A stretch of DNA of 64,000 nt, taken from IMG/VR virus record IMGVR_UViG_3300020469_003050, positions 188,001 through 252,000 of that record; one strand, given 5' to 3'. The DNA comes from a virus. Positions within the stretch are counted from its first letter, which is position 1; each line of letters starts with the position of its first letter. Made by a program: the position numbers and the translations under genes. The notes under the pieces are model-generated. The model was not told where the DNA came from, made no database searches, and saw only the letters and a list, made by a program, of their open reading frames with translations. This document shows, piece after piece, positions 1 through 64,000 of the stretch.

Positions 1-1569
1 ACTTTGGGTGAAGCGGCAGAATTTACAAAAAGATTTTCAAGGTCTGTTGGTATGGTAGGGGTAGAGGCTTCATTAAAGTTTGCTAACTCACTAACAAAAT
101 CTCAGGAAGCAGGTGGTCTTGATTTAATGGGAAGATTTGGTCTTGAATTTGGTGAAGTAACATCAATGGCAGGAGAATACCTAGACTCATTAAGAAACAT
201 GGGCATGCTTGATAGAATGAGTCAGCAACAATTACGTGACGGCATGGACGATTTTATGTCAGGTGTTTCTTCAACTGCAAACGTTTTAAAGATAAACATG
301 GAAGATGCGGCTAAGATGATTTCACAAACTCTACAACGTGACGATGTAACATCAAGATTAGTTACTATGGATCCTAATAGAGCGGATGCTATTAGAGAAA
401 CTATTGGCTCAGCAGGAATGTTAGAAGGTACATTAGGTCAAGCAGTTATCGAAAGAATGGCATCAGGAAGCCAAGGCGCATTTGTACGTGAACAAACATT
501 CCAACAATTAAGTGGTACCGGTATTGGTAAAGAATTACTTCCAATAGTAGAACGACTTGCATTGGCAGGCGAACAAGGACCAGAAGCATTTCAAACTGCT
601 ATTGCTGATTTATCTCCTGACATTGAGTCTATCATTGCAAGTGCAAGTACAGAAGGCAATCGTGCAGTTTTACAAACAGACCAATTTTTACAGTCAATGG
701 TTGCAGACTTGTCTCGTCTTAGAGCAACAGTGGAAGATGCAGATGCAGGACCGGTAGCACCATCACAAGAAGATAAGGCTGTTTTACAAGGAATAGAAAA
801 TAGAAGACAGGCTATTATTGGATTAGAAGATATATTCAATACACAAGTTAAAGGTTTTACGGATATATTAGGAGAAATGAACGCCGCCAACGCAGAATCA
901 ATTAAAGAATTTAGAAGATTAGGAAATGAATTAGGACCAGTAGCAACTGTTATTACAGATTTATCTGGAACATTTGAGGTAATAAAAACAGATTTCTTTA
1001 CATCATTGGCAGGTATGGCCGCAGATATAAGTGCATGGTCTACAGAAAATCTTGGGATAAGGGATGAAAATCAAGACCAAAAAAATCTTGAAAACGAAAT
1101 TACATCCTCAGAAGCAACAAAGAATTTAACCGAAGGTAAAGGAAAACTCAGGGACGAGGATTCAGGTGTAATCACAGATAATAATAATCAAAATATATTC
1201 GACCAAATTATGAAAGGCTTAGAGGCAACTGGATCAAACCGGGACGAAAAAATTGCTAAAAGTACAGAAAAAATGGTTGAGTTGATGGGAATGTTTGATA
1301 ATGGTGATAGCATAGCAGACAGAGAGGCGCAGATGGTAGAATTCGCAAAAGTACTAGAGGTACTTTCGAAAACTGATGCGGCTCAAACTGAGGATGGAAA
1401 GAAAAATCTTGAAGCAATATATGAGGCTTTAACTAACATGGATACGAATATGGCTTCTTGGTTTAAGCCAAAATCTGTAGATGACCGTAATACGGCAGAA
1501 AACCAAGCAGAACAAAACGCTATACTGGTAGAATTACAAAAGCTAATAAATGCGTTAAATAACATATAA
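1..1569 (+). CDS. Unidentified long structural-like protein, 5' partial
   Basis: The frame is open from base 1 (ACT TTG GGT), so the true start lies upstream; about 522 codons are visible. I do not recognise the family. The protein is soluble, rich in Ala, Gly, Met and Gln in its first half, and predicted mostly helical, with an Asn/Glu-rich C-terminal third. Long helical composition and its place directly before the portal gene suggest a virion or tape-measure-like component, but no motif proves it. It ends 58 bases before the portal start. A sigma70-like promoter lies in that gap, so the next unit can be transcribed separately. Confidence 0.5.
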   Translation, partial: TLGEAAEFTKRFSRSVGMVGVEASLKFANSLTKSQEAGGLDLMGRFGLEFGEVTSMAGEYLDSLRNMGMLDRMSQQQLRDGMDDFMSGVSSTANVLKINMEDAAKMISQTLQRDDVTSRLVTMDPNRADAIRETIGSAGMLEGTLGQAVIERMASGSQGAFVREQTFQQLSGTGIGKELLPIVERLALAGEQGPEAFQTAIADLSPDIESIIASASTEGNRAVLQTDQFLQSMVADLSRLRATVEDADAGPVAPSQEDKAVLQGIENRRQAIIGLEDIFNTQVKGFTDILGEMNAANAESIKEFRRLGNELGPVATVITDLSGTFEVIKTDFFTSLAGMAADISAWSTENLGIRDENQDQKNLENEITSSEATKNLTEGKGKLRDEDSGVITDNNNQNIFDQIMKGLEATGSNRDEKIAKSTEKMVELMGMFDNGDSIADREAQMVEFAKVLEVLSKTDAAQTEDGKKNLEAIYEALTNMDTNMASWFKPKSVDDRNTAENQAEQNAILVELQKLINALNNI

Positions 1570-1579
1570 GGAAAGAGTA

Positions 1580-1608
1580 TTGACAACGATATCAAATTAT
1601 GATAGAAT
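1580..1608 (+). promoter_or_regulatory. Sigma70-like promoter before portal gene
   Basis: TTGACA at 1580-1585, exactly 17 bases, then TAGAAT at 1603-1608. It lies in the gap between the left-edge gene and gp20. The fit to a host vegetative promoter is good, which is odd because the portal gene of T4-like phages is expressed late. No late box is seen here. Confidence 0.55.
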
Positions 1609-1627
1609 TAACTCTAAGGATTAAAAA

Positions 1628-3325
1628 ATGAGCTGGAAAAAATATTTTAAAACATACGACGGAATGCCAGAGAAAATGCCTGCATCGACAGGTACTGGTT
1701 ATGCCGGAGATGCAGACACAAAACGATATAGTAGTTGGTTACCTGAGGTTTATCAGGGACAACCTAATCGTGTTCAACGATATGGTCAATATGACCAAAT
1801 GGATTTAGATAGTGAAGTAAACACTGCGTTAGATACTATTGCAGAATTTTCTACACTAAAAAACGAACAATCTAAACTTCCATTTCATGTCGAATATAAT
1901 GAAGACCAAACTGAAACTGAAAATGACGTTATTCAAAAGTCATTAAGACAGTGGTGTGCAGTAAATAAACTTTCTAAAAGAATGTTTCGTATTTTCAGAA
2001 ATGCAGTAAAATACGGAGACCAAATGTTCATTCGTGATCCTGAAACATATAAACTTTTTTGGGTAGATCCAGCTAAAATCGAAAAAGTTATTGTGAACGA
2101 AGGTAAAGGAAAAAAGATTGAAGCATATTATATTAAAGATTTAGATATCAATCTGCAAAGTCTTAATATTACAGCCGATACAACTAAACTATTACAAACA
2201 CAAACAGGGTTAACAGGTGCACCTAACATCAATGCTAATACAACACAAGGCTTTGGTGGCGGAGCGGCAGGCGGAACACGTTTTGTTTCAGACCAAACTT
2301 CAACTCCTGTAGATGCTAAACACGTTGTACACGTTTCATTGAATGAAGGTATCGATGGCTTCTGGCCTTTTGGTAACTCAATTCTTGAACCAGTGTTCAA
2401 AGTTTACAAACAAAAAGAATTATTAGAAGATGCTATTCTGATTTATCGTGTTCAAAGAGCACCAGAACGTAGAGTATTCTATATCGATGTTGGTAACATG
2501 CCAACACACAAAGCAAGAGCCCACTTAGAACGTATTAAAAGTGAAATTCATCAAAGACGTATTCCAAGTAAAACAGGCGGTGGACAAAACATCGTTGATA
2601 GTGCATACAATCCACTATCTATTATGGAAGATTACTTCTTTGCTCAGACGGCTGAAGGTCGTGGTTCTAAAGTTGAGACACTACCAGGTGGTGAAAACTT
2701 AGGACAGATTGATGATTTAAAATACTTCAATGATAAGATGATGCGTGGACTTAGAGTCCCACCAAGCTATCTAGGTAGCTTAGACAGTGACGGTAACGGC
2801 TACAATGATGGTCGTGTAGGCACTGCATTCATTCAAGAATTTAGATTTACTAAGTTCTGTGAACGTTTACAAGCATTAGTATGTGAAGACTTAGACAGAG
2901 AGTTTAAGATGTTTATGAAACACAGAGGTGTGTTGATTGAAAGTTCTTTATTCGACTTGAAATTTAATCCTCCACAAAACTTTGGTAAGTATCGTCAAGC
3001 AGAAGTAGACCAAGTTATGATGAACGTATTTACTGCAATCGAAGGCGCAGATTATGTAAGTAAACGTTTTGCAATGAAACGTTTCTTAGGTTTATCAGAA
3101 GAAGAAATTATGATGAACGAAAAAATGTGGCATGAAGAAAAAGGCACTGGTGACCCACAAGATGCAGACGGACTTAAATCAGTAGGAGCAAGTGTTCCTG
3201 GTGGTGAGTTTGAAGGCGGCGAACCAGAGTTTGATGAAACAGATGCAGAAACAGATGAAGAAGGTTCACCAATAAGTGGCGCGGAAAATTCCGAAGAAGG
3301 CGAAGAAACGCCTATAAACGTATAA
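1628..3325 (+). CDS. 20: Portal vertex protein (gp20)
   Basis: Portal protein forming the dodecameric ring at the unique capsid vertex. It nucleates prohead assembly, binds terminase during packaging and connects to the neck. At 565 residues it is slightly longer than T4 gp20 (524). Recognisable family segments are the N-terminal start leading into DLDSEVNTALDTIAEF, the central block with QRAPERRVFYIDVGNMP, and the conserved RVPPSYLG region about two-thirds along. The last 60 residues are an acidic Glu/Asp/Gly tail. A TAAGGA ribosome site lies 7 bases before the ATG. It is followed by small core-region genes and gp21, as in T4. Confidence 0.95.
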   Translation: MSWKKYFKTYDGMPEKMPASTGTGYAGDADTKRYSSWLPEVYQGQPNRVQRYGQYDQMDLDSEVNTALDTIAEFSTLKNEQSKLPFHVEYNEDQTETENDVIQKSLRQWCAVNKLSKRMFRIFRNAVKYGDQMFIRDPETYKLFWVDPAKIEKVIVNEGKGKKIEAYYIKDLDINLQSLNITADTTKLLQTQTGLTGAPNINANTTQGFGGGAAGGTRFVSDQTSTPVDAKHVVHVSLNEGIDGFWPFGNSILEPVFKVYKQKELLEDAILIYRVQRAPERRVFYIDVGNMPTHKARAHLERIKSEIHQRRIPSKTGGGQNIVDSAYNPLSIMEDYFFAQTAEGRGSKVETLPGGENLGQIDDLKYFNDKMMRGLRVPPSYLGSLDSDGNGYNDGRVGTAFIQEFRFTKFCERLQALVCEDLDREFKMFMKHRGVLIESSLFDLKFNPPQNFGKYRQAEVDQVMMNVFTAIEGADYVSKRFAMKRFLGLSEEEIMMNEKMWHEEKGTGDPQDADGLKSVGASVPGGEFEGGEPEFDETDAETDEEGSPISGAENSEEGEETPINV

Positions 3326-3328
3326 ATA
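3321..3328 (+). promoter_or_regulatory. Late promoter TATAAATA
   Basis: Exact match to the T4 late -10 octamer, overlapping the end of gp20 and 23 bases before the start of the small gene at 3352. Confidence 0.8.
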
Positions 3329-3351
3329 GATATAGTAAACGGAGTTTTTAA

Positions 3352-3570
3352 ATGAAGTATAGTGATATTACTGAAAACTATTCTCCCGATAGGGATGAAC
3401 ACAATAGTATAGAATTAGATGATACAAGAAAAAATCGTCTAACACTTACTCACCTTAACGACTTACGTAAGATGCGAGAGTACAGAAAAGTACAGAATTC
3501 AGAAGAAAAAGACAGACTAAAAACACAATATGGTGGTAGTTCTGAGGCATCTTCTGAGCCTGAATTATAA
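3352..3570 (+). CDS. Small prohead-core-region protein (gp67 position)
   Basis: A charged 72-residue protein with no membrane segment; its centre (residues 24-60) is helical and basic, with an SSEASSEPEL-type tail. I cannot assign it by sequence. In T4 the interval between gp20 and gp21 holds the small core proteins gp67 and gp68, so a role in the prohead core is inferred from position and from its own exact late promoter. GGAG lies 7 bases before the ATG. It is followed by a terminator, so it forms a single-gene late unit or is read through. Confidence 0.7.
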   Translation: MKYSDITENYSPDRDEHNSIELDDTRKNRLTLTHLNDLRKMREYRKVQNSEEKDRLKTQYGGSSEASSEPEL

Positions 3571-3656
3571 TACTTAAGTGTCAAATAATTGTTTGAAAAA
3601 GCAGTTATATATGTATATAAGTTAGATATGACCTTTGTTAAATAACTTATATCAGT

Positions 3657-3684
3657 AAAACCGGCTAAAAAATAGCCGTTTTTT
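3657..3684 (+). terminator. Rho-independent terminator
   Basis: Stem CGGCTA (3662-3667), loop AAAAA, stem TAGCCG (3673-3678), then six T. It closes the gp20 / small gene unit. The A-run before the stem could extend pairing with the T-tract. Confidence 0.8.
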
Positions 3685-3714
3685 ACTATTTCCGTAATAA
3701 ACCCCAAAAACCTC

Positions 3715-3722
3715 TATAAATA
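3715..3722 (+). promoter_or_regulatory. Late promoter TATAAATA
   Basis: Exact late octamer about 31 bases after the terminator T-tract. It starts the unit acidic core protein - gp21 - gp22 - gp23, in which no further late box is seen. The leader is about 85 nt. Confidence 0.8.
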
Positions 3723-3813
3723 CATGTGAAACAAATAGAAGTGTTTCTACAACCTTGCCACATCAAACGACTTTAGTTTTTTTTGGCGATTATAGAAGAT
3801 AAGGAGACAAATT

Positions 3814-4740
3814 ATGTCAGACAGAAGTACATTAGAACAAGTACTAGAACTTCTAATCAATGAGGAAAAAGACGCCGCAGAAAACATGCTACACGATTTT
3901 ATCGTAGCAGAGGCTCGTAGGATCCACGAAGAACTTCTTAACGATAGTGATGAAGTTGTAGAAGAAGACCTTGAGGATATTGACGAATCTGAGGCCGAAA
4001 CTGACCAAGTTGAGGACAAAGAAGAAGTACAAGAAGTAGCATCAATCGAAGATGGCGAAGCTATCGAAGATGATACTGCTGAAATTGAAAATGAAGAATT
4101 CTATGATGCAGACGAATCAGACGAAGACGAAGCAGTTGCAGACCTAGAAATGGGTGATGCAGAAGCAGAGGCTCCGGCAGATGATATGGAAGCACGTGTA
4201 GACGACCTAGAGTCAAATCTAGCGGATCTTGAAGCGGAATTCGAAAAAATAATGTCAGGTGAAGGCGATGACATGGAAGACGAAGCTGATGAAGAAGAAA
4301 AAGCTGAGGACGACATGGAAGAAAACACTGAAATTGAAGTTGCAGAAGAAGACGCAACAGAAGGTTCAGATGAACTAGAACTTGATTTAGAAGAATCAGA
4401 AGACGAAGCAGAAGCAGACAAAGTAGAAGAAAAATCTACAGATGAAGAAGCAGATGAGAAGTTAGAAGAATATGTAACTCCAGCAACTGCCTCAGCAGGC
4501 GATGACGGCGATAAAGCGGCATCACCAGTTAATGCTAATGCAAAACGTCCTGGTGACGACTCAAATGCAAAACCAGTAGGCCAAAACGATGGTAACACAT
4601 CAGGCGGCAAAGGTGATGCACCAAAAGATATGTCAACAGGTAACGTAAACGTATCTGGAAACAGTAAAGCACCTGCTATGAAGTCAGAGAAGGCTTCTGA
4701 AGGTGATGGCGGCGCTAACACCAAGTCAGTTAGTAGCTAA
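3814..4740 (+). CDS. Highly acidic prohead-core candidate
   Basis: A 308-residue protein whose middle (about residues 45-220) is almost entirely Glu/Asp/Ala. It is preceded by a normal helical N-terminus (LEQVLELLINEEKDAAENML) and followed by an Asn/Ser/Gly/Lys C-terminal tail. It has no enzymatic motif. It lies directly before the prohead protease, where T4 encodes core protein gp68, so I infer a scaffold or core component, possibly cut by gp21. RBS AAGGAG precedes the ATG. The long minus-strand frame opposite is a mirror of the Glu/Asp codons and not a gene. Confidence 0.7.
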   Translation: MSDRSTLEQVLELLINEEKDAAENMLHDFIVAEARRIHEELLNDSDEVVEEDLEDIDESEAETDQVEDKEEVQEVASIEDGEAIEDDTAEIENEEFYDADESDEDEAVADLEMGDAEAEAPADDMEARVDDLESNLADLEAEFEKIMSGEGDDMEDEADEEEKAEDDMEENTEIEVAEEDATEGSDELELDLEESEDEAEADKVEEKSTDEEADEKLEEYVTPATASAGDDGDKAASPVNANAKRPGDDSNAKPVGQNDGNTSGGKGDAPKDMSTGNVNVSGNSKAPAMKSEKASEGDGGANTKSVSS

Positions 4741-4760
4741 TAAAACTTTGGAGAAAACCA

Positions 4761-5390
4761 ATGACCGTTCTTATTGAAAGATTATCTCACAAACAAGCGA
4801 ATGTGAAGTCACGTATCGTTGAAGGTGATGACGGTGGAAAAAACATGTTCATGGAAGGCATTTTCGTTCAAGGTAACGTAAAGAATGCTAACCAAAGGGT
4901 ATACCCTGTATCTGAAATTACTAGGGCTGTTGAATCAGTTCAAGCTAAAATCAGTGAAGGATTCCCGGTTTTAGGTGAATGTGACCATCCGCCAGAATTA
5001 ACCGTAAACGTTGACCGTGTTTCGCATATTATTGAAAGTATGTGGATGGATGGACCGAACGGATATGGTAAACTTAAAATTGTTCCTACACCCATGGGTA
5101 ACATTATCAGAACATTAATCGAATCAGGTGCCACGCTAGGTGTCTCATCTCGTGGTTCTGGTGAAGTTGGCAATAATGGGAATGTTAGCAATTTTGAGAT
5201 TGTCACAGTGGACATCGTAGCACAACCAAGTGCTCCGGATGCCTATCCGAAGGCAATCTACGAAGGTTTAATGAACATGCGTGGTGGTTTCCAAACTTGG
5301 CAACTAGCACAAAATGTACAAACAGACAAGGTCGCTCAAAAATACTTGTCAGAACAAATCGTTAAGTTCATTAATGAACTTAAACTATAA
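4761..5390 (+). CDS. 21: Prohead core protease (gp21)
   Basis: Serine protease of the T4 gp21 (S77) family that matures the prohead by cutting scaffold, capsid and internal proteins after I/L-x-E. At 209 residues it is the usual length (T4 gp21 is 212). Visible catalytic elements are His76 in ECDHPP, the Ser pair 129-130 in LGVSSRG, and Asp151 after VTV. A GGAG site precedes the ATG. It sits between the acidic core protein and the scaffold as in T4. Likely substrates in this window are gp22, gp23 and the CTS-bearing protein at 28793. Confidence 0.93.
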   Translation: MTVLIERLSHKQANVKSRIVEGDDGGKNMFMEGIFVQGNVKNANQRVYPVSEITRAVESVQAKISEGFPVLGECDHPPELTVNVDRVSHIIESMWMDGPNGYGKLKIVPTPMGNIIRTLIESGATLGVSSRGSGEVGNNGNVSNFEIVTVDIVAQPSAPDAYPKAIYEGLMNMRGGFQTWQLAQNVQTDKVAQKYLSEQIVKFINELKL

Positions 5391-5404
5391 CAGGAGAAGC
5401 AACA

Positions 5405-6523
5405 ATGGCAAACGAAATCCTTGCTAATCTTTTAGAGTCCGGAGCACTTTCCGAAGAGGCAGGCGCTCAGATTAAAGAGGCTTTAGAAGCAAAATTGAAT
5501 GAAGCAAGAGAGGAGATTACAGCCGAGTTGCGTGAGGAGTTCGCACAGAAGTTTGAACACGACAAATCAGTAATTGTTGAAGCAATGGACAACATGCTAA
5601 ACACAACAATTAAAACTGAAATGGAAGAGTTTAAAACAGACCGTGAGGCTCTTATCGCAGAACGAGTAGCATATAAGAAAGCAATTTCTGAACATGCTAA
5701 ACTCCTTGAAAAATTCATTGCATCTCGTTTGGCGACCGAAGTTAAAGAACTCAGAGCAGATAGGGCAAAAGTTAACGAAAATCTACAGGAAACTAAGAAA
5801 TTCGTTGTTAAACAACTTAGCCGTGAACTAGCTGAGTTCCACAACGATAAACGTGAATTAGTTAACACTAAAGTACGTTTAGTAGCAGAAGGTAAGAATA
5901 TTCTTAACAAGACCAAAGATTCGTTTATTAAACGTTCAGCGGAACTTGTTGAAAATACAATCAAGAATTCTTTACGTTCAGAAATGAAAAACTTAAAAGA
6001 AGATATCGTACAAGCTAAAGAAAACGAGTTTGGACGTAAGGTCTTTGAAGCATTTTCAGGTGAATTCATGGCTTCACAATTAAATGAAGGCACAGAAGTA
6101 GCTAAAGTGAACAAGAAACTTGACGAATCTGCTAATAAGGTTGCAGAACTTGAAAAAGTGATAGCTGATAAAGATGCAGACATTGAAGGCGCTAAGAAGG
6201 CTCAACGTATACTAGAAGACAAGATGAACAGAAAAGAAGTTCTATCAGGTTTACTAGCACCGTTAGGCAAAGAAAAAGCAACAGTAATGTCTGATTTATT
6301 GGAATCAGTAAAAACTTCAAATCTACAAACAGCATTCAAGAAATATCTACCGGCTGTTTTAGATGAAAAGAACGTTTCAACGAAAGAAGAAACACAAACA
6401 TTAACAGAAGGCAAAGTGACTGAAATTACTGGTGACCGTGAGGTAGCAACACACGTGGAATCACAGTCGTCAGGAAGCGATGCCGAAATTATTCAGCTTA
6501 AAAAATTAGCTGGATTAAATTAA
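5405..6523 (+). CDS. 22: Prohead scaffold protein (gp22)
   Basis: Major scaffold of the prohead core, later degraded by gp21. The 372-residue product is longer than T4 gp22 (269). It is almost wholly charged coiled coil (residues about 10-300), with many Glu/Lys/Arg heptads, no Trp and few aromatics, as expected for a scaffold. The C-terminal 35 residues end in IIQLKKLAGLN, a short motif also seen in the protein at 29356. AGGAGAAG precedes the ATG. Its place between gp21 and gp23 makes the call firm. Confidence 0.88.
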   Translation: MANEILANLLESGALSEEAGAQIKEALEAKLNEAREEITAELREEFAQKFEHDKSVIVEAMDNMLNTTIKTEMEEFKTDREALIAERVAYKKAISEHAKLLEKFIASRLATEVKELRADRAKVNENLQETKKFVVKQLSRELAEFHNDKRELVNTKVRLVAEGKNILNKTKDSFIKRSAELVENTIKNSLRSEMKNLKEDIVQAKENEFGRKVFEAFSGEFMASQLNEGTEVAKVNKKLDESANKVAELEKVIADKDADIEGAKKAQRILEDKMNRKEVLSGLLAPLGKEKATVMSDLLESVKTSNLQTAFKKYLPAVLDEKNVSTKEETQTLTEGKVTEITGDREVATHVESQSSGSDAEIIQLKKLAGLN

Positions 6524-6549
6524 CCAGGATAATATCAGGAGAATAAAAG

Positions 6550-7704: not shown

Positions 7705-7730
7705 TTCGTTATACACAGATTACGAAGAAA

Positions 7731-7756
7731 GCCGGGATTTATTCCCGGCTTTTTTT
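7731..7756 (+). terminator. Rho-independent terminator after gp23
   Basis: Stem GCCGGGA (7731-7737), loop TTTAT, stem TCCCGGC (7743-7749), seven T. It ends the core-protein to gp23 operon. Confidence 0.9.
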
Positions 7757-7779
7757 ATGGCTAAAAAACCAAGAAATCT

Positions 7780-7787
7780 GATAAATA
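7780..7787 (+). promoter_or_regulatory. Late promoter GATAAATA
   Basis: Late octamer with G for the first T, 24 bases after the gp23 terminator and about 43 before the fibre gene at 7830. Confidence 0.75.
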
Positions 7788-7829: not shown

Positions 7830-9554
7830 ATGGCAGAACAAATTAAATTTGGTGACAGATTATTTCTAAAAGGCGAAAAGCTAATATTAGATTCTGTTGC
7901 AAATGCAGTAATAAAACCTAATCAAGGTACACTAGAAATTGAAGGTAATTTACTAGTATCAGGTACAACTACCACAGTTAATTCAGAAACAGTAAGTATC
8001 GCTGATCCATTTATGTTATTAAATGGTGATTTGACATCATCAACTGCACCAACAGAACCTGTTGGTATTGAAATTAATAGAGGTTCTTCTGATAATAAGA
8101 AATTTGGATGGGACGAAACAAATTCTAAATTCTCAACATTTAGTGATGATTTAAAAACAGCCGCCATTGAAGCAACTGATATAGTTCTTACAGGTTCTTT
8201 AGTAGGTGATATTGCCTCAGAACTAGGTGATACAATAATTGATGTAACAGGCAACGGTACAGTAGATATCAACTCAGGTAATATTGACGGTACTGTTATT
8301 GGTGCAACTGCACCAGCACAAGCAACTTTTACTTCACTTACTTGGTCTACTACATCTAATACTACAGATGATTTAACTGAAGGTACAACAAATCAATATT
8401 ACACAGATGCAAGAGCAAGAGCGGCTATCAGTATGAATGCTGGTAGTGAATTGACTTATGATCCAGCAACTGGTATAATATCTTTTTCAGGAAATTATTA
8501 TCAAGATTCAGATGCTAGACAGGCAATCAGTGTAACAGGTAATGAAATAGGTTATGATAATACAACTGGTGTTATTAGTTATGATGCTCCTACAGACTTT
8601 GGTCTTTTAACAGATACAAATGTTATTTCAGGAAGCACAGGAGGCTCAACAGGTTCTAGTTTACCAACTAATGTTAGTTCTTTGTTTAATGATGCAGGGT
8701 ATGTTACACAGAGTTATCAAGGCTTCACCGCAGATTGGCAAGCAGATGATGTAACTAATTTAAATGCGGCAAAGGCTTACACTGACCAACAAATTAATTC
8801 GGTTGTTGACGTTGCTCCGTTACAATTAAACACATTAAAAAAATTAGCGGCGGCAGTAAATAACGATGCCAATTATAGTACATCAATACAAAATCAAATT
8901 AATGCTATGGCAATAGCCAATAATTTAGCAACTGTGGCTACATCAGGTAGCTTTAATGATTTACTAGACCAACCAACTATTCCTGTAAACGTAAGTGACT
9001 TACCAAATGATAGTGGTTACTTAACTTCTGGTGATTTACCAACTAATTATATGATTAATAATGGTAACAACACAGTAGCAGGAAGTATCACACCATTAAA
9101 TGATGCATCTTTCAGCTTGGGTACTCCAACAAAAAGATGGGAATATGTTTATGGTGAAACAGTTGAGGCAACATATGCCGACTTAGCAGAAAGATATGAA
9201 GCAGATGATATTTACGAACCAGGAACTGTTCTTATATTCGGTGGTGATAAAGAAGTTACTAAAACAGATGTACATACTGATTATAGAGTAGCAGGTGTTG
9301 TAAGTACTAATCCAGCTTATAAAATGAATTCAGATGCAGGTGCAGATGACACTCATCCTTACATTGCATTACGTGGTAGAGTTCCATGTAAAGTGGTGGG
9401 ACCAGTAGCTAAAGGCGACTTGATGGTAACATCTAGCGTCAAAGGACATGCAAAAAGTGTCGCTGGTGCTGATATGGGACGAGCAGTTTTTGCCAAATCC
9501 TTGACAAATGATGCTTCTGAAGGTTCAAAAATTATTGAAGTTGTAATACTTTAA
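7830..9554 (+). CDS. Fibre-like virion structural protein A
   Basis: A 574-residue beta-rich Gly/Ser/Thr/Asn protein. Near residue 190 it has a repeat of the form EGTTNQYYTDARARAAIS, typical of marine phage fibre shafts. From about residue 450 it has a C-terminal domain starting ATYADLAERYEADD and containing GTVLIFGG and ALRGRVPCKV. The same domain ends the protein at 11754. These are features of tail or head fibres; which structure it joins is not clear, and the position after gp23 also permits a capsid fibre. RBS is weak (GAGAGAAT). Own late promoter. Confidence 0.75.
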   Translation: MAEQIKFGDRLFLKGEKLILDSVANAVIKPNQGTLEIEGNLLVSGTTTTVNSETVSIADPFMLLNGDLTSSTAPTEPVGIEINRGSSDNKKFGWDETNSKFSTFSDDLKTAAIEATDIVLTGSLVGDIASELGDTIIDVTGNGTVDINSGNIDGTVIGATAPAQATFTSLTWSTTSNTTDDLTEGTTNQYYTDARARAAISMNAGSELTYDPATGIISFSGNYYQDSDARQAISVTGNEIGYDNTTGVISYDAPTDFGLLTDTNVISGSTGGSTGSSLPTNVSSLFNDAGYVTQSYQGFTADWQADDVTNLNAAKAYTDQQINSVVDVAPLQLNTLKKLAAAVNNDANYSTSIQNQINAMAIANNLATVATSGSFNDLLDQPTIPVNVSDLPNDSGYLTSGDLPTNYMINNGNNTVAGSITPLNDASFSLGTPTKRWEYVYGETVEATYADLAERYEADDIYEPGTVLIFGGDKEVTKTDVHTDYRVAGVVSTNPAYKMNSDAGADDTHPYIALRGRVPCKVVGPVAKGDLMVTSSVKGHAKSVAGADMGRAVFAKSLTNDASEGSKIIEVVIL

Positions 9555-48061: not shown

Positions 48062-48315
48062 ATTTGAAGAACCAAACTTTAGAAGAGGCTGTCTCTAAAA
48101 ATATTCCGGTATATTTGGTATACAAGGAAGACACTAAAGAGATTTTAGAATGGTGGCCTTTCGGTGAGGGACTAGCAAGTTCCAGTGCAAGTATGCGTAA
48201 CAATATGCATGGACCTGATAGTCATAATTATGCAAGTTGGAAAGATTACGTAGTGATACGTGATAATCACAACAAGCATCTTAAACAATTGGAAGAAATA
48301 GAACGGAGATTATGA
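48058..48315 (+). CDS. Small early hypothetical protein
   Basis: 85 residues, overlapping the upstream peptide and the downstream HNH gene by four bases each. It has a Trp-rich centre (ILEWWPFGEG) and a charged C-terminal helix. I do not recognise it. Confidence 0.65.
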   Translation: MNLKNQTLEEAVSKNIPVYLVYKEDTKEILEWWPFGEGLASSSASMRNNMHGPDSHNYASWKDYVVIRDNHNKHLKQLEEIERRL

Positions 48316-48959
48316 TGCCTGCATGTAAAGGAGATACGTATTCGGTTCCACGCCCGTTTTGTTTAACAGAGGGTTGTGATAATTTGGCACACAATACTGC
48401 ATCAGCGGCTAAGCCAGTCTGGCGTAAATATTGTGGTAAGTGTCATACGATACGTAGAAAGAATTTTCAAAATTTATCAGCTAATTTATCTAAAAGTCAA
48501 TATCCTACTTGTTGTATAAAAAACTGTAGGAAAAAAGTAACACTATTAGGAACAGACCATCATGGTAATTTAAAGTTTTCTCAATACTGCGAAAAACACG
48601 GAGGAGTCCCATTTCATTTAACGTGGAGAAAACCTGCATGTGATAATATAAATGGTAAAGGAATGTTATCAGATAGAAGTCCTATTGGGTTTAATTGTAC
48701 AACTTATATACATTACGACCCGCCCCTTCCTAAGGGAACAAAGTGGTTAGTAGATTATGGCTTCCCACAACCAATGTTACAAGTTGACCATATAGACGGC
48801 CATCCATATAATGAACCATTAGATGGGTCTAATTTTCAGACTTTATGTGCTTGTTGTCATAACTATAAAACTTGGAAATCTGGTGATGGACAAACCGCAG
48901 GTAGAAAAACCGCACAAAAATCAACAAATAATAATGTTGTCCAAAACTTGACAATATAG
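48312..48959 (+). CDS. HNH endonuclease-type protein
   Basis: A 215-residue protein rich in Cys pairs. The HNH core is VDHIDGHPY (about 158-166) followed by NFQTLCACCHNYKT (174-187), matching the beta-beta-alpha-metal nuclease motif. N-terminal CxxC-like pairs (CGKC 41-44, CCIKNC 67-72) suggest extra zinc fingers for DNA recognition. It may be a free-standing homing endonuclease or a recombination/packaging nuclease. The start is 48312 or the adjacent ATG 48315. Confidence 0.78.
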   Translation: MMPACKGDTYSVPRPFCLTEGCDNLAHNTASAAKPVWRKYCGKCHTIRRKNFQNLSANLSKSQYPTCCIKNCRKKVTLLGTDHHGNLKFSQYCEKHGGVPFHLTWRKPACDNINGKGMLSDRSPIGFNCTTYIHYDPPLPKGTKWLVDYGFPQPMLQVDHIDGHPYNEPLDGSNFQTLCACCHNYKTWKSGDGQTAGRKTAQKSTNNNVVQNLTI

Positions 48960-57083: not shown

Positions 57084-57319
57084 TAATCATACTCCGCTAG
57101 ATACTCCACTAAATCTTTAACGTTTTTAATTTCGTCTAGTCTTTGGTTGTCTAATTCGATATCTAACTCGTCTTCTAGTGTAACTAGAATTTCAATACTA
57201 TCTAACGAATCAACGCCAATGTCTTTAAATGGTTGACCTGATTCGATAAACTCATCAGTTAGTTCAACCTCTGCCCTGTCAAGTGTAATTTCTTTTAGTG
57301 CCTTTAGTGTTCTGCTCAT
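57083..57319 (-). CDS. Acyl carrier protein
   Basis: A 78-residue ACP from ATG 57319, whose start is next to the stop of the radical SAM gene. The phosphopantetheine site is Ser38 in DIGVDSLDSIEILVTLEDEL, preceded by FIESGQPF and followed by an acidic helix III (VKDLVEYLAEYD). Acidic and the right length. A longer frame to 57430 would overlap the radical SAM gene fully and lacks support. It needs a host phosphopantetheinyl transferase. It carries acyl or other thioester-bound intermediates, here perhaps for a product made with the neighbouring enzymes. Confidence 0.9.
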   Translation of the reverse strand: MSRTLKALKEITLDRAEVELTDEFIESGQPFKDIGVDSLDSIEILVTLEDELDIELDNQRLDEIKNVKDLVEYLAEYD

Positions 57320-57320
57320 T

Positions 57321-58259
57321 TTAATAGCCGCCTTCATTCTCTTTTGTGTGTTCGTAAAATGGTGCAAGTTTGAAGTCTTGTGTAATACGTCCTCTTCTTT
57401 TGCTACCTGGGTCTGGAATACCACCTTCATTGTCAGTATCCCAATTAGTAATTTTTACCCATCTTCCTCTATTTAGAAGTTTATTTCCTTCCTTCAGTGG
57501 GAATAAAATAGTGTTCTTTTCGCTAAACTTATTGTAGTAAGGTACACCGTGAAAGCTCCAAATATAGTCCTCAGAGACATTAAATTGGTCTGCACATAGT
57601 TTTACTAGCCCTTCTAATTTAATGTTACCGTCTTTGTCTTTCTGATATCTACCTAATTGTCCAACGTTTTTAATTCTCATCATTACGTTGTTTATCTTTT
57701 CTTTCTCTATAAGTTCTTTTAATCTTGCTGGTGCTTCATAATTAATCTCTGGAATAATAATAGTACCAGTATTCAAATTCATTTTTCTATCTACGATATT
57801 ACGAAGTGCTTTTAGTTTTTTAGTTGCACAACGTAGTTCATCGATTTGTTCATACCAATCATCGTTATCTACTCCATTCAAACTTAAAGTTACACTACGT
57901 AATCCTGCTTCAATTAAAGTATTTAAATATTTTGGACGTGATAATCTTAATCCATTTGTTACTAAAGTACAACTATGCTTTCTACCATTGGTACGTCCAT
58001 GCTCATATACTGCACGAATAAAATTTGCACAGTTAGGAGACATTGTAGGTTCTGCACCGATAATACGTACAAATGCTCGACCACCAAGCCTATCCATGAA
58101 ATCCTTAAATCTATCTAAGTCCATATCAGGTGGTTCTCTGCTAGGTATATAACAGTTCTTACAAGTCATGTTGCATTTATGCGTGATATCTGCACATATA
58201 TCTACAAACGTATTTTCTTCTGGTTCTGTAATCTCATAATTAAAGAGTTTATGAAGCAT
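57321..58259 (-). CDS. Radical SAM enzyme upstream of ACP
   Basis: Start at 58259 (MLHKLFNYEI), because the late promoter at 58297-58304 leaves no room for the longer frame; AAGG lies upstream. The 312-residue protein has the cluster motif C29-x3-C33-x2-C36 (KCNMTCKNC), a GAEPTMSP loop for SAM, and TLSLNGV. There is no obvious SPASM Cys set at the C-terminus. Family members modify peptides, lipids or cofactors. It forms an operon with ACP and a hydrolase-like gene. Confidence 0.85.
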   Translation of the reverse strand: MLHKLFNYEITEPEENTFVDICADITHKCNMTCKNCYIPSREPPDMDLDRFKDFMDRLGGRAFVRIIGAEPTMSPNCANFIRAVYEHGRTNGRKHSCTLVTNGLRLSRPKYLNTLIEAGLRSVTLSLNGVDNDDWYEQIDELRCATKKLKALRNIVDRKMNLNTGTIIIPEINYEAPARLKELIEKEKINNVMMRIKNVGQLGRYQKDKDGNIKLEGLVKLCADQFNVSEDYIWSFHGVPYYNKFSEKNTILFPLKEGNKLLNRGRWVKITNWDTDNEGGIPDPGSKRRGRITQDFKLAPFYEHTKENEGGY

Positions 58260-58274
58260 ATAGTTTTGTACCTT

Positions 58275-58282
58275 AATAAATA
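58275..58282 (+). promoter_or_regulatory. Candidate + strand late box AATAAATA
   Basis: 7 of 8 match, 41 bases before the dioxygenase gene at 58323. It faces the minus-strand late box 15 bases away, so the two would produce overlapping transcripts. Confidence 0.45.
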
Positions 58283-58296
58283 TGTTTATGTACATC

Positions 58297-58304
58297 TATT
58301 TATC
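58297..58304 (-). promoter_or_regulatory. Late promoter GATAAATA for radical SAM/ACP operon
   Basis: Reverse complement of TATTTATC; 38 bases before the chosen radical SAM start. It places this metabolic operon in the late class, with virion genes. Confidence 0.73.
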
Positions 58305-58322
58305 GTCCCGGGAAATGCGCCA

Positions 58323-58931
58323 ATGTTAAAGCATTTATACAAATTCGATTATCGAATTGACAAGGACCAACTCAGAAAAGAACACAAGTTGATGCAAGAA
58401 AGTAATGATACTTCTTTGCATAATGTTAATACCGATTTATTAGAAAAAGTTAATGCAGGCAGAGAAACTGGTGAAGATATTTTCCCTACATATCATGATT
58501 TAAAAGATAAAGAGCAATGGGATAATATGGATACTTTGAAAATAAGAGCATTCAATGAATATCAATATCAAGATGATTGTCCAGAAATGAAAAGATTAAC
58601 TAATGATTTTGCTAAGATATTAGATAGTAAAGACATAACACCGTTCTTTGTATTACAAGAGCAAAACTCAGACTTTCCAATGCATATTGATATGGGGTTT
58701 CAATGTGCAATAAACTTAATTATAGATGGTGGAGATACACCAATTATGTTCAGAGAAGACGATGGATCTATACATAAATACAACTACGATAACGCATTAC
58801 TTAACATCTGTAACGTCTTTCACGGTGTACCTAAACAACAAGATATGAAAAGAATGTTACTTAAATTTAGAATAAAAGATGTATCGTATAATAATGCATG
58901 TAAGCGAATGATGGAGTACTTTAGTGAATAA
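58323..58931 (+). CDS. 2OG/Fe(II) dioxygenase-like protein, paralogue 1
   Basis: Start at 58323 after GGGA; a frame extending left overlaps the divergent promoter. The 202-residue protein has His121-x-Asp123 (PMHIDMG), His167 (VFHGVP) and Arg177 (KRMLLKF), the layout of aspartyl/asparaginyl-hydroxylase-type double-stranded beta-helix enzymes. A GGDTPIMFREDDG loop precedes the second His. It overlaps paralogue 2 (GTG start). The target is unknown; a protein-bound or ACP-bound substrate is possible because the ACP operon is divergent. Confidence 0.75.
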   Translation: MLKHLYKFDYRIDKDQLRKEHKLMQESNDTSLHNVNTDLLEKVNAGRETGEDIFPTYHDLKDKEQWDNMDTLKIRAFNEYQYQDDCPEMKRLTNDFAKILDSKDITPFFVLQEQNSDFPMHIDMGFQCAINLIIDGGDTPIMFREDDGSIHKYNYDNALLNICNVFHGVPKQQDMKRMLLKFRIKDVSYNNACKRMMEYFSE

Positions 58932-59487
58932 TTCTATACATAATATAGATTTTGATATTGACAAAGATAAGCTAATAGAAGAAAGCAATCATTGTCAGTT
59001 TGTACCAATCAATCGTGTTACATTAAAACGTGTTCAGTTAGGTAGCTATGATGCAAAAGGTAGAAAGTTTTCTGATTATCTTAACAAGGAAGATAAAGAT
59101 TGGTGGATGCGACAAGATACTTGGCAATCAAGTATGAATGCTGATGCTGATATGTTAACTAAGATGCCAGAGACTACTAGAATACTTTCTATATTTAAAG
59201 AGAGATTAGACACTAATGATATTGAGGCTAACTTTTTTACGCAAAAAGTAGGCACTAATGTTAAGATGCATGTTGATGTTGGTACATCTTGTGCTATAAA
59301 CTTTATACTCAGAGGAGAAGAAACTCCGATAGTATTTGAAGAAGATGGTACATTTTATTATAAAGATGCATTAATAAATGTTAGTAAGAAACATATGGTA
59401 CCAGAACAAACATCTACAGATAGAATGCTTTTTAAATTAAGAATTTTAAATATGCCATTTGAAGAAGTAAGAGAAAAACTGATATGA
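58924..59487 (+). CDS. 2OG/Fe(II) dioxygenase-like protein, paralogue 2
   Basis: 187 residues with a GTG start overlapping paralogue 1. Same active-site order: His116-x-Asp118 (KMHVDVG), His157 (KKHMVPE), Arg167 (DRMLFKL), and matching flanks (CAINFILRGEETPIVFEEDG against CAINLIIDGGDTPIMFREDD). A tandem duplication is clear; the N-terminal 60 residues differ. The genes overlap the desaturase start (ATGA), implying one translation unit. Confidence 0.75.
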   Translation: MNNSIHNIDFDIDKDKLIEESNHCQFVPINRVTLKRVQLGSYDAKGRKFSDYLNKEDKDWWMRQDTWQSSMNADADMLTKMPETTRILSIFKERLDTNDIEANFFTQKVGTNVKMHVDVGTSCAINFILRGEETPIVFEEDGTFYYKDALINVSKKHMVPEQTSTDRMLFKLRILNMPFEEVREKLI

Positions 59488-60116
59488 ACAAAAGCCAAAT
59501 ATTTATATTATTACATCATGTATCGTTAGCAGTAGGCATTGCGATGTATGGGTTTCAATGGCCATGGGCTATCGTAGTATTTTTGTTTGGAATGTTTTGG
59601 GCTTGGGTAGTAGGACATAATATTATTCATTATTATTTTGCTCATGGCAAATACGAGGACAATCTTAAAAGTTATTTTTATACTTTACTGTCATTAACGT
59701 CTGGATTAGGATCACCAATATCATTCAGTGCTTCACACAGACAACATCATAGATTTACAGACACAGAAAAAGATCCACACTCGCCACATCATATAGGATG
59801 GAAACGTGTATACTTTTTAGATTGGGAACCACAAAATATCAATCCTAGACTTCTTGCTGATTTTGCCAGAAGTAAATTTCAAAAATGGGTTCACAAACAT
59901 TGGTATTATTTGCATATTGCAATCGTATTAGTGATTGCTCTTATAGATTTAAGATTGCTATTCTTTGCGTTATCTCCAGGAGTTCTGTATAGTTTTCACA
60001 GTGCCAGTTTGACAAATACATTGTCTCATATTGGCGGAGTGCATAGAAATGTACAGTTGCTAAAACCCCTTGCATGGTGGGGGTGGAACCATGCTGACCA
60101 TCACGATTATAAGTAA
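59484..60116 (+). CDS. Fatty-acid desaturase
   Basis: A 210-residue integral membrane di-iron desaturase. Three His boxes are present: HNIIHYYFAH (45-54), HRQHH (85-89) and HADHH (203-207). There are about four membrane helices (8-24, 28-44, 62-78, 142-164). It is shorter than usual acyl-CoA desaturases (about 300) because it ends three residues after the last box. It would need host or phage electron donors (ferredoxin or rubredoxin). Coupled to the two dioxygenase genes and close to an ACP, so modification of acyl chains is a coherent guess. Confidence 0.87.
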   Translation: MNKSQIFILLHHVSLAVGIAMYGFQWPWAIVVFLFGMFWAWVVGHNIIHYYFAHGKYEDNLKSYFYTLLSLTSGLGSPISFSASHRQHHRFTDTEKDPHSPHHIGWKRVYFLDWEPQNINPRLLADFARSKFQKWVHKHWYYLHIAIVLVIALIDLRLLFFALSPGVLYSFHSASLTNTLSHIGGVHRNVQLLKPLAWWGWNHADHHDYK

Positions 60117-60139
60117 GTATTTTTTATGAGGGAGAAAAT

Positions 60140-60424
60140 ATGTTATTTGAAACTATCAAAGCCGTTCAGTTAGCTTTGTGCGTTATTATGGGAATAGATG
60201 ATTGTCCAAACACTAAAATTGTGGAAATGGAAAATGAATGGACACCTGCGTACTATTACTATACTAGTGGAGAAGGTCATATTCATTATGATGATAATCA
60301 AATAATTCACGTAGGTATTATTATACACGAATTAGCACATCATTTAGAAAAGACACAAGACAAAGATTTCAAAACAGTCTGTATTAAATATGGTGGTACC
60401 AACTGTCATATACATGACAAATAA
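60140..60424 (+). CDS. Small HExxH putative metallopeptidase
   Basis: 94 residues with a hydrophobic N-terminus (LFETIKAVQLALCVIMG) that may be a signal or membrane anchor, and the zinc motif HELAHH (63-68). It is far shorter than most metalloproteases and may be a minimal SprT/M-family-like domain. RBS GAGGGAG. It is 23 bases after the desaturase gene and precedes an early promoter. Confidence 0.65.
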   Translation: MLFETIKAVQLALCVIMGIDDCPNTKIVEMENEWTPAYYYYTSGEGHIHYDDNQIIHVGIIIHELAHHLEKTQDKDFKTVCIKYGGTNCHIHDK

Positions 60425-60431
60425 TTAGCTA

Positions 60432-60460
60432 TTGACTATTAGTCTAAAATAATATATAAT
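60432..60460 (+). promoter_or_regulatory. Sigma70-like promoter
   Basis: TTGACT (60432-60437), 17 bases, TATAAT (60455-60460). It serves the genes at 60486 and 60833. Confidence 0.76.
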
Positions 60461-60485
60461 TACACAACATATTGGAGAAAAGCCT

Positions 60486-60818
60486 ATGGCTAAAAATGGT
60501 GAACTAATTAATACGCCTGAACTAATGCGACATGCCAATGTCAAAAGTCGTTTAGATAGGCTTAGAGCATTGCAAGGCAAAGCAAAAGATTTAAGACAAT
60601 TTCATAGTGACTTTGAAAACTATGAGTTTTTAAAATGGACTTGCTTATCCCATGATGATATTAATTACGAAAAGTTATTGGTATCAGGTGCTGGATATGT
60701 AGTTCAATTAGTAGATTGGTGTAATAGTCATTGTGAAGATTATTATGTTGCTTATCAAGGGAAACTGTATTTTAAAAGTGAAACTGATGCCGCATACTTT
60801 ACAATGGTCTGGAAATAG
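60486..60818 (+). CDS. Hypothetical early protein
   Basis: 110 residues, RBS TTGGAG. Basic helical N-terminal half (VKSRLDRLRALQGKAKDLRQ) and an aromatic C-terminal half (YEFLKWTCLSHDD, YYVAYQGKLYFKSE). No known family. First gene of an early unit with the DnaE-like protein. Confidence 0.62.
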   Translation: MAKNGELINTPELMRHANVKSRLDRLRALQGKAKDLRQFHSDFENYEFLKWTCLSHDDINYEKLLVSGAGYVVQLVDWCNSHCEDYYVAYQGKLYFKSETDAAYFTMVWK

Positions 60819-60832
60819 TGTATACTAAAATT

Positions 60833-61423
60833 ATGAATAAAGTAGAAACAGATATTGATATTGATGTAATTGACCGTGACACAGTCCTTACACATTTTCG
60901 ACACATAACAGCCAGTATCAAAAAAGGCGATAACTGGACAAAGCATAATAGTGGTGTATATCTACAGCCTATTCCATATGATCCAATATCTGGTTTATCT
61001 GCTATCGAATATAAAGAAGCAGAAGAACGTGGATACTTTAAACTAGATTTTCTTAATAACAGTTTATATGAAGGTGTCCGTGATGAAAAACACCTTGATG
61101 CATTGATTGATAAAGAACCTTTATGGGATTTATTACAACACGAAGATATTGTAAAAAATCTTGCACACGTACATAATCATATAGATGTTTTGAAAGTAAT
61201 GAAACCCCAAAGTGTAATGGAACTGGCAGAAGTTCTAGCGGTCATTAGACCTGCAAAAAGGCACTTGCTTAATGAAAGTAAGTCTAAGATTTCTGAATTA
61301 GTTTGGCAAAAGCCAGAAGATGGTACTTACTATTTTAAAAAAGCACATGCTATTGCATATGCAGTAAGTATTGTGGTTCAGCTTAATCTATTTTGCGAAC
61401 AAGTTGAACAGAACGCCTCTTAA
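60833..61423 (+). CDS. Mini-protein derived from DNA polymerase III alpha
   Basis: ATG 60833 gives 196 residues; GTG 60818 is an alternative. The order of motifs follows the region behind the catalytic palm in DnaE: FKLDFL (69-74), then MKPQSVMELAEVLAVIRPAKRHLL (123-146; compare the SFEDLVALVALYRPGPL pattern), and YFKKAHAIAYAVSIVVQLNLF (167-187; compare FNKSHAAAYALVAYQTAYLK). The PHP domain and the catalytic aspartates are missing, so it cannot polymerise DNA. It might bind DNA, dNTPs or the host clamp, or decoy the host replisome. Confidence 0.7.
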   Translation: MNKVETDIDIDVIDRDTVLTHFRHITASIKKGDNWTKHNSGVYLQPIPYDPISGLSAIEYKEAEERGYFKLDFLNNSLYEGVRDEKHLDALIDKEPLWDLLQHEDIVKNLAHVHNHIDVLKVMKPQSVMELAEVLAVIRPAKRHLLNESKSKISELVWQKPEDGTYYFKKAHAIAYAVSIVVQLNLFCEQVEQNAS

Positions 61424-61772
61424 TACGTTTCTGTATAATATTTGATAGACTAGTCTCTGGTCCCCATGTTACCTCAACATCTTTTGAATTCATATTCAAT
61501 ATCCAATTCTTATACTTGCCAATCTGTGAGCCTAAAAATAAATTAATCGGCATAAGCCTATTAGACTCCCACCACCATTGTTCTCCTAATTCTACGAACT
61601 TCTTTCTTAATTCAGGTGTTGGTATTGCCTCAAAGTTGTACATCGAAGTGATTACTTGGTCTGAATTTATAATTATACCTAGATGCTCAGTAAATTCTTT
61701 TTTATTTCCGTATCTAACATATGAGAAGAACGGATAATTCTCTTGCATCCATTGTTGTTTTTCTTTGTCCAT
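61383..61772 (-). CDS. Hypothetical protein, minus strand
   Basis: 129 residues with conspicuous WWWESNRLMPINLFL and a basic end (IQKRIKRRSVQLVRKID). It looks like a conserved small protein of T4-like marine phages, but I cannot name it. It overlaps the end of the DnaE-like gene by 41 bases tail-to-tail and starts 38 bases from the late box of the divergent gene at 61823. No minus-strand promoter is evident. Confidence 0.62.
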   Translation of the reverse strand: MDKEKQQWMQENYPFFSYVRYGNKKEFTEHLGIIINSDQVITSMYNFEAIPTPELRKKFVELGEQWWWESNRLMPINLFLGSQIGKYKNWILNMNSKDVEVTWGPETSLSNIIQKRIKRRSVQLVRKID

Positions 61773-61809
61773 CGTTATATTTAGCTAACCTAGAAAATGG
61801 TCTCTGGGA

Positions 61810-61817
61810 GATAAATA
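61810..61817 (+). promoter_or_regulatory. Late promoter GATAAATA
   Basis: Only 6 bases before ATG 61823. By T4 spacing, transcription would begin at or next to that ATG. Confidence 0.72.
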
Positions 61818-61822
61818 CATAT

Positions 61823-62620
61823 ATGAATTTAAACATGTATCAATATGAAAAAACTATTGAGATTACTTGTGCAGATGGTGACAACACAAGTAACATGACA
61901 ACTTACCTGAGGAATATGCCAATGTATGACGGACAACACAAACTTCATAAGGGTATTGATAATACTCTTAGATTTAATTTACGAGATACCGATAGAAAAC
62001 CTATCGACTTGACTAACAAAACTATTATATGGAAAATGTACGATAGAGAAACGAGAGAGAACGTACTATTCAAATACCTTACCGTCACCAACGCAACCAA
62101 AGGTATGGCACAATTAACTATATTTACAACAGATACGATAATGCTACCTCAGGGCTTTTATCAATTTGCTATGTATACTGTAGAAAATGGTGTAGAACAA
62201 ATCATATACACTGACACATACGATAATGCTAAAGGCGTAATCGAAGTCATAGACGATGTATATCCAGAGTTTGTAGATTCACAGGAAAGTTCAACATTTT
62301 TTAACGATGGCTCTTACTTTATGTCAACTGCTTTCGATGGATCTTCATCAACATCTAAGTCAAAATCAATTCATACTGTAGCTTTATACTTTGACAATTT
62401 CTCTGGAACTGTTAATTTACAAGGCGATTTAAGTGAACAACCAAGTTCACAACACTCAGATTGGTTCAATATCAATCCAAAACTATTCTCAAATCCAGAT
62501 ATCACAGTTAATAATGAGACTGGTGTACAAGCATTTGTGCTTGAAGCAAACGTAAATTGGATAAGAGTTAGATACACTGCGACTAACGGTTCTATTAAAA
62601 AAGTTCTACTAAGAAACTAA
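61823..62620 (+). CDS. Baseplate/structural protein with BppU-like N-terminus
   Basis: Start ATG 61823 or 61835; neither has a ribosome site, and the late promoter ends 6 bases upstream, so the mRNA may be leaderless. The product is about 265 residues, beta-rich. Residues about 40-150 (NTLRFNLRDTDRKPIDLTNKT, IIWKMYDRETRENV, LPQGFYQFAMYTVENG) resemble the Ig-like N-terminal domain of baseplate upper proteins. A Ser-rich linker and a second beta domain follow. It is probably a virion part placed away from the main structural region. Confidence 0.68.
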   Translation: MNLNMYQYEKTIEITCADGDNTSNMTTYLRNMPMYDGQHKLHKGIDNTLRFNLRDTDRKPIDLTNKTIIWKMYDRETRENVLFKYLTVTNATKGMAQLTIFTTDTIMLPQGFYQFAMYTVENGVEQIIYTDTYDNAKGVIEVIDDVYPEFVDSQESSTFFNDGSYFMSTAFDGSSSTSKSKSIHTVALYFDNFSGTVNLQGDLSEQPSSQHSDWFNINPKLFSNPDITVNNETGVQAFVLEANVNWIRVRYTATNGSIKKVLLRN

Positions 62621-62628
62621 TATAGCAC

Positions 62629-62657
62629 TTGACTTTCTGGTCCTAGTTTGCTATTAT
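62629..62657 (+). promoter_or_regulatory. Sigma70-like promoter for primase
   Basis: TTGACT (62629-62634), 17 bases, TATTAT (62652-62657). The predicted start falls on the primase ATG at 62664. Confidence 0.72.
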
Positions 62658-62663
62658 ACTAGT

Positions 62664-63665
62664 ATGGACCTTCAACAAGTAATATTCACACATATCCCTG
62701 GAAAGAACAGACAATCTAGTGGTGGCTGGACTAGTTTCAACTGCCCATGTTGTATCGAGGAAGGCGAGCCTCGTTTGGATACTAGAATGCGTGGGGGTGT
62801 TCGTAGCGACGGTGATTCCATATCATACCACTGTTTTAACTGTGGGTTCACTGCAAGCCATCGTCACGGAAGAATACTTAACAAGAAATTTTTAAAACTC
62901 ATGCGAAATATGAATATTTCTGAAAGCGAGATTAAGCGTTTACAGTTAGAAGCAATCCGTCAGAAAGAGTTGTCTGAAGGTCCATACCTATTTACATCTA
63001 AAACACAAGTGACACGTGTTCCAAGTTTTCCTGATGTCGAACTACCTGAAGGTTCGGAAGATTTGGAAGTTTTACTAGCAAAAGATAGTCCTCCAGAAGG
63101 AGCCATCTATGCAGTTAAATATTTGATTGATAGAGGAGTATATGATAATATAGAGGATTGTTATTGGTCTCCAGATAAGTTTTTTAAAAATAGAATTATA
63201 TTTCCATTTTATCAAGGAGATAGAATAGTAGGATATACTGCTAGAGATATAACTGGAAAGTCCTCGTCTAAATACATGACGAAAGCACCGAGAAAATTTT
63301 TACATAACGTAGACAAGGTAAAATCTAATAATAAATACTTAATCGTATGTGAAGGTATAATCGATGCTCTTGCATTGGATTGTATTGCGATTACAAGTAA
63401 CGAGGCTTCACAAGACCAAATTGATTATATAAATCAGTTTAAAGGAGAGGTTATTGTTTGTCCCGACAGAGACAAAGCTGGAGAGAAGTTAATCAAACAA
63501 GCCCAAGAAAATGGTTGGAGTGTATCTTTCCCTATGTGGGAGGACGACATTAAAGATGCCGCAGATGCAATTCAACGATATGGTAAACTATATACCTTAC
63601 AAAGTATTATAGATGCACGTATAAGTAACAACACTAAAATAAGTGTGAAAATGAGAATAGGATAA
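62664..63665 (+). CDS. 61: DnaG-type DNA primase
   Basis: Makes RNA primers for lagging-strand synthesis, the role of gp61 in T4. The N-terminal zinc finger is C27-x2-C30 (NCPCC) and C57-x2-C60 (HCFNC). The TOPRIM core has YLIVCEGIIDALAL and VIVCPDRDKAGEKL. At 333 residues it is close to T4 gp61 (342). No RBS is present and the predicted +1 coincides with the ATG, so a leaderless mRNA is likely. The partner helicase gp41 is outside the window. Confidence 0.9.
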   Translation: MDLQQVIFTHIPGKNRQSSGGWTSFNCPCCIEEGEPRLDTRMRGGVRSDGDSISYHCFNCGFTASHRHGRILNKKFLKLMRNMNISESEIKRLQLEAIRQKELSEGPYLFTSKTQVTRVPSFPDVELPEGSEDLEVLLAKDSPPEGAIYAVKYLIDRGVYDNIEDCYWSPDKFFKNRIIFPFYQGDRIVGYTARDITGKSSSKYMTKAPRKFLHNVDKVKSNNKYLIVCEGIIDALALDCIAITSNEASQDQIDYINQFKGEVIVCPDRDKAGEKLIKQAQENGWSVSFPMWEDDIKDAADAIQRYGKLYTLQSIIDARISNNTKISVKMRIG

Positions 63666-63668
63666 ACT

Positions 63669-64000
63669 ATGAAAAAAGTAAAGAGTACAATTATACCACA
63701 ACCCAAAGAACAACCGGCACCACCCCCACCCCCTCCGATGCCAACTCCGCCAGTACCACCAAAGCAGGCAGGTGAGTTCTTAAGAGAGAATGGTGTATTG
63801 TTCATGGACAAAGAGTTCAACCAAGACAACTGTATGCCTCTTGTAAGAATGATTTTAGAATACAATCTGATGCCAAAAGATAAAGCACCAGATATTATTC
63901 ACTTATATATTAATTCACCAGGTGGTTTGGTAGACAGTTGTATGCATCTAATTGATACAATCAAACAATCACGTATTCCAGTATATACATATGGAATGGG
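63669..64000 (+). CDS. clpP: ClpP-like protease, 3' partial
   Basis: Runs off the window; 110 codons are visible. RBS AGGA six bases before the ATG, four bases after the primase stop. Residues 1-36 are a basic start plus a proline-rich tail (PAPPPPPPPMPTPPVPP). From residue 38 the Clp protease proteolytic fold begins, with IIHLYINSPGGLVDSCMHLIDTI and VYTYGMG, directly before where the catalytic Ser should follow. It may be a prohead or host-directed protease. The Pro tract is absent from bacterial ClpP as far as I know. Confidence 0.85.
   Translation, partial: MKKVKSTIIPQPKEQPAPPPPPPMPTPPVPPKQAGEFLRENGVLFMDKEFNQDNCMPLVRMILEYNLMPKDKAPDIIHLYINSPGGLVDSCMHLIDTIKQSRIPVYTYGM

Follow-up and report, generated by a model that had tools for sequence, protein, structure and literature searches.

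Rusinov et al. (2018; PMC6286503) described complete or near-complete elimination of restriction sites in roughly one in ten viral genomes, where it concerns orthodox Type II systems and chiefly non-temperate double-stranded DNA phages. Staphylococcus phage K, which lacks GATC, is a clear case, attributed to avoidance of Sau3A (PMC6532042). Methylation of GCWGC, the word considered here, is known from aquatic microbes, in the form of M.AbaBS3I (PMC6329791). The phage described below resembles those of Rusinov et al. in having shed orthodox Type II sites, chiefly palindromes, almost entirely, but differs from them (PMC6286503) in that 200–316 sites are missing over 343 kb and that, for one and the same word, the zero state has changed at least six times in one family. 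Like phage K, it is a large lytic phage purged of every site of one common, here presumed, host enzyme; phage K differs in the word, in the phage family and presumably in the host, and its enzyme is known (PMC6532042).

The window, meaning the whole 64,000-base stretch of DNA that was analysed, comprises bases 188001–252000 of a 342,607-bp virus record, which encodes a T4-like portal and sheath together with ribonucleotide reductase and belongs to a T4-like jumbo phage. The portal protein (PF07230; positions 1628–3325, + strand), on which the family tree is based, is 52–54% identical over about 90% of its length to those of the T4-like jumbo phages PA5oct (Arenbergviridae), Atu_ph07 and Phosso. 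Unlike the present phage, these three do not avoid GCWGC in the stretches read.

Absence of GCWGC from the record

Exact string counting found neither GCAGC nor GCTGC in the 64,000 bases of the window, as the preliminary description had claimed; a maximal-order Markov model expects 40 (22.8 GCAGC plus 17.2 GCTGC). These are the sole 4- or 5-mers in the window that have an expectation above 5 and a count of zero. The entire record contains no GCWGC against 203 sites expected under the Markov model, and a codon-preserving shuffle of all coding sequences of at least 100 amino acids predicts 316 sites (s.d. 9) where none is seen; with elimination defined as an observed/expected ratio below 0.1 at 15 or more expected sites, both comparisons place GCWGC among the eliminated words. 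The 41.7 kb outside these coding sequences likewise contain none. The initial observation is confirmed, and it holds more strongly than first claimed.

GCGGC and GCCGC, which had been called very common, occur 72 and 26 times in the window, and GCSGC occurs 411 times in the record against 230 expected. The phrase is a loose one, because the abundance stems largely from the avoidance itself: the enrichment is confined to codon frame 0. Several other words are depleted in the window (positions 1–64000) taken together with loci L081–L098: AAGCTT (0 of 25 expected), TGATCA (0 of 19), TCTAGA (6 of 70), GATC (295 of 1,167) and CATCTC/GAGATG (26 of 135).

Synonymous replacement in all three codon frames

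GCWGC has been removed from both strands and from each of the three frames through synonymous replacement. Alanine codons that precede a codon starting with GC are without exception GCG (236) or GCC (113), giving 349 of 349 and no GCA or GCT, whereas alanine elsewhere is mostly GCA (3,534) or GCT (1,602), with 396 GCC and 308 GCG; overall, GCA and GCT account for 83% of alanine codons. The preliminary description had noticed this switch, and the coordinates of its example alanine runs were correct or off by one; at positions 8847–8855 (+ strand), Ala-Ala-Ala is written GCG GCG GCA. The Ala-Ala dipeptide itself is barely depleted (349 seen, 384 expected).

The codon shuffle predicts 290.6, 9.1 and 15.9 GCWGC sites in frames 0, 1 and 2, and none is present in any of them. 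GCSGC is raised in frame 0 (349 against 58 expected) and lies at expectation in frame 1 (20 against 19.8) and frame 2 (5 against 4.1), where the site-forming codons are replaced by CAA for glutamine (62 of 62) and TGT for cysteine. Sites in frames 1 and 2 have been removed through other synonymous codons, so that neither a base-calling artefact nor selection on protein accounts for the loss, and the earlier proposal that selection acts on the DNA is borne out by the shuffle and by the synonymous loss in every frame.

Repeated loss of palindromic words among relatives

The 80 loci with related portals can be grouped as GCWGC-zero, partly depleted or normal, and the portal tree implies at least six changes of the zero state. 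This state is found in the window's own clade, the L019–L023 clade, L032, L026/L027, the L028–L067 clade and the L031–L068 clade; in the 328-kb record G006, from the L019–L023 clade, no GCWGC is present against 261 expected. Together, the window's clade and its near sister provide 26 contigs, in which one GCWGC is present against 223 expected; that single site results from a C-to-T change missing from three near-identical contigs and is a recent mutation or else an error. A sister clade at 72–75% portal identity has GCWGC at normal frequency, and another lacks AGCT and has no or almost no GATC. Further losses concern GCGC in G014 (0 of 92 expected) and GTAC in G031 (8 of 565), in which eight 6-base palindromes are nearly gone. 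Loss of GCWGC and loss of AGCT show a suggestive correlation across the relatives, with too few independent pairs to carry weight.

AGCT and GATC are both absent from L268–L274 (G033; 0 of 206 and 0 of 427 expected, respectively), L228, L231–L238, L009, L014, L015 and L073. In the Lake Biwa genome bin BD3, both of these words carry methylation (PMC6329791); that the pair is common to BD3 and these phages is perhaps a coincidence.

A census of 528 word classes of 4–5 bases in 155 related records (81,216 word–record tests) returned 86 exact zeros, 79 of them within five palindromes: GCWGC (32), AGCT (27), GATC (14), GCGC (3) and GTAC (3). The records include many close kin, so that the zeros are not independent, and palindromes dominate regardless. 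Among 6-mers, summed over ten records, an observed/expected ratio below 0.15 was found for 25 of 450 palindromes versus 24 of 18,532 non-palindromes. Such domination by palindromes is characteristic of orthodox Type II restriction.

Complete losses are also common in the kin of HTVC008M (L371–L450), a separate marine T4-like family used for comparison; ACGT, AGCT, CATG, CASTG, GATC, TCGA and GTWAC are among the words concerned, and in L405 and L435 GCWGC and AGCT are both absent. The loss of words in a second such family means that the pressure is not tied to one phage family and favours hosts as its source. These phages have also erased a few non-palindromes (CCGA, GATGC and AGCC), which means that enzymes other than simple palindromic Type II ones must also be at work in this family. 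L403, L405 and L435 lack AGCT and AGCC/GGCT and have little GGCC, as if RGCY were cut by a CviJI-like enzyme.

DNA modification genes

No methyltransferase of the families PF00145, PF01555 or PF02086 (C5, N6/N4 and D12, respectively) scored above the cut-off in G000, and across the related records searched these families are absent or nearly so. They were considered as what might separate avoiders from non-avoiders and rejected, almost none having been found. The phage does encode a short methyltransferase-like protein. Atu_ph07 carries several PF01555/PF02086 methyltransferases, and GCWGC is not avoided in the stretch of it that was read.

A 513-aa protein matches no Pfam or PHROG model, and its predicted fold best matches TGT and DpdA (7ui4); in PA5oct-type phages its homologues carry the annotation 'hypothetical'. 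Genes for FolE and QueE lie near it, and a QueC-like gene lies elsewhere. Judged by this predicted fold and its companions, the set probably represents 7-deazaguanine DNA-modification genes (L084:4800–6338, corresponding to record bases 64800–66338; L084:10523–11197; L084:11202–12095; and L083:6–590), and the guanines of the phage may therefore be modified. As a cause of GCWGC loss the DpdA-like gene was discarded: it occurs in avoiders and non-avoiders alike and so does not explain the pattern of avoidance. Its distribution suggests that DpdA-type modification leaves GCWGC unprotected.

Alternatives to host restriction

Modified bases or assembly errors that make GCWGC appear as GCSGC in sequence reads could mimic avoidance, and both the DpdA-like gene in the phage and its relatives and the frame-0 excess of GCSGC, which matches the GCWGC loss, would fit such an artefact. 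Misreading, however, would raise GCSGC in frames 1 and 2 as well, where GCWGC is equally at zero and no rise is seen; the frame test thus rules out a base-calling artefact, and the avoidance is genuine and operates at the DNA level. The synonymous changes of glutamine and cysteine codons in these frames, the normal or partial GCWGC content of relatives with the same DpdA-like gene and the concordance of many separate assemblies likewise count against it, leaving this explanation with practically no probability. The clear selection at the DNA level would also be compatible with GCWGC being a regulatory or replication mark that has to be absent, or with a by-product of codon usage. The codon-preserving shuffle nevertheless predicts hundreds of sites, the word is missing outside genes as well, its frequency is normal in sister phages and other lineages have erased different palindromes. 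Both versions are very improbable, and the preliminary suggestion that a phage or host factor uses the word as a mark finds no support.

A phage-encoded endonuclease that cuts GCWGC in the DNA of hosts or competitors, and that is not paired with a methyltransferase, would equally oblige the phage to lack the site. The sole candidate nuclease in the window, and a weak one, is a CxxC-rich HNH endonuclease of 215 aa (positions 48312–48959, + strand), whose structure model is unusable (pLDDT 31). Its close homologues are confined to sister contigs of the GCWGC-free clade, with one GCWGC seen against about 110 expected in the 14 loci concerned; G006, the only other near-complete GCWGC-zero record, has a related HNH protein (28% identity); and complete loss has arisen repeatedly in separate lineages, so that the changes on the portal tree could reflect a mobile phage gene. 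Against this, the contigs with close homologues all come from a single clade and therefore count as one event, and the HNH protein of G006 is non-syntenic and little more than a generic HNH match. No restriction-enzyme families were found among the lineage-specific genes, drawn from incomplete contigs, of either the GCWGC-zero or the GATC/AGCT-zero lineage, including no GATC enzyme in the latter although this type should be easily recognised, and the near-loss of eight 6-base palindromes in G031 would need as many phage enzymes. We consider such a nuclease unlikely in the present phage, and the broader version, in which jumbo-phage lineages carry methylase-free nucleases, the window's HNH protein being one example, that cut host or rival DNA at GCWGC, AGCT or GATC, each lineage having purged its genome of the word cut by its own nuclease, slightly less likely still. 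Two other nuclease genes of the record were set aside: an HNH_5 gene at base 89985, which occurs in non-avoiders, and a PDDEXK_15 nuclease at base 184991, which occurs in PA5oct and in normal sisters too.

Probable restriction by a host enzyme

Restriction of GCWGC, which the preliminary description had named as the simplest cause, is the explanation best supported, by the palindromic Type II losses, the depleted 6-mer palindromes and the synonymous removal in all frames. It is very probable that the complete elimination arose under orthodox Type II restriction of TseI- or BbvI-like specificity, in hosts that usually carry the enzyme. The recognition set of TseI, ApeKI, BbvI and M.AbaBS3I exactly matches the missing word and spares GCSGC; an enzyme of this specificity was not found in the phage. 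BbvI (GCAGC) and TseI/ApeKI (GCWGC) sites form an identical set on double-stranded DNA, and these enzymes are therefore indistinguishable from the pattern; the retention of GCSGC speaks against a GCNGC enzyme of Fnu4HI- or BisI-like type.

We infer that the GCWGC-cutting enzyme belongs to the host. Over a long period, an orthodox Type II enzyme cleaving GCWGC in its unmethylated form would usually have been present in the hosts, and new sites arising by mutation would have been purged by selection along synonymous routes (GCA or GCT to GCG or GCC before GC; CAG to CAA; TGC to TGT). Because the search for three common methyltransferase families found none that would protect the phage, absence of the site would itself serve as the defence. 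Related lineages would have met other enzymes and erased other words, namely AGCT, GATC, GCGC and GTAC.

The phage's PRPP synthetase, whose closest cellular relatives are mostly from Alphaproteobacteria, provides a weak hint, from sequence affinity, of what the host may be. It is one of many genes of host-like character for metabolism and transport, among them those for a xanthine/uracil-type permease, an SbmA/BacA-like protein, the PRPP synthetase, a phosphate-transporter-like protein and an IMP-dehydrogenase-like protein (L084:6363–7652, L084:17006–17980, L093:12374–13327, L095:6966–7928 and L096:18363–19535); apart from that of the permease, these names were given by eye.

Implications

With the precedents for site elimination in lytic double-stranded DNA phages, the present finding falls in a known kind: the loss of GCWGC is a strong case of it, an extreme but established anti-defence route. 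Its interest lies in the recurrence within a jumbo-phage family that has a DpdA-like gene, and the pattern suggests that these phages stay exposed to Type II restriction despite carrying this DpdA-type gene. Words that have been wholly erased form a readable record of the restriction enzymes that a virus has met. As the lost words differ among lineages (GCWGC, AGCT with GCWGC, or AGCT with GATC), they could aid host prediction for uncultured jumbo phages.
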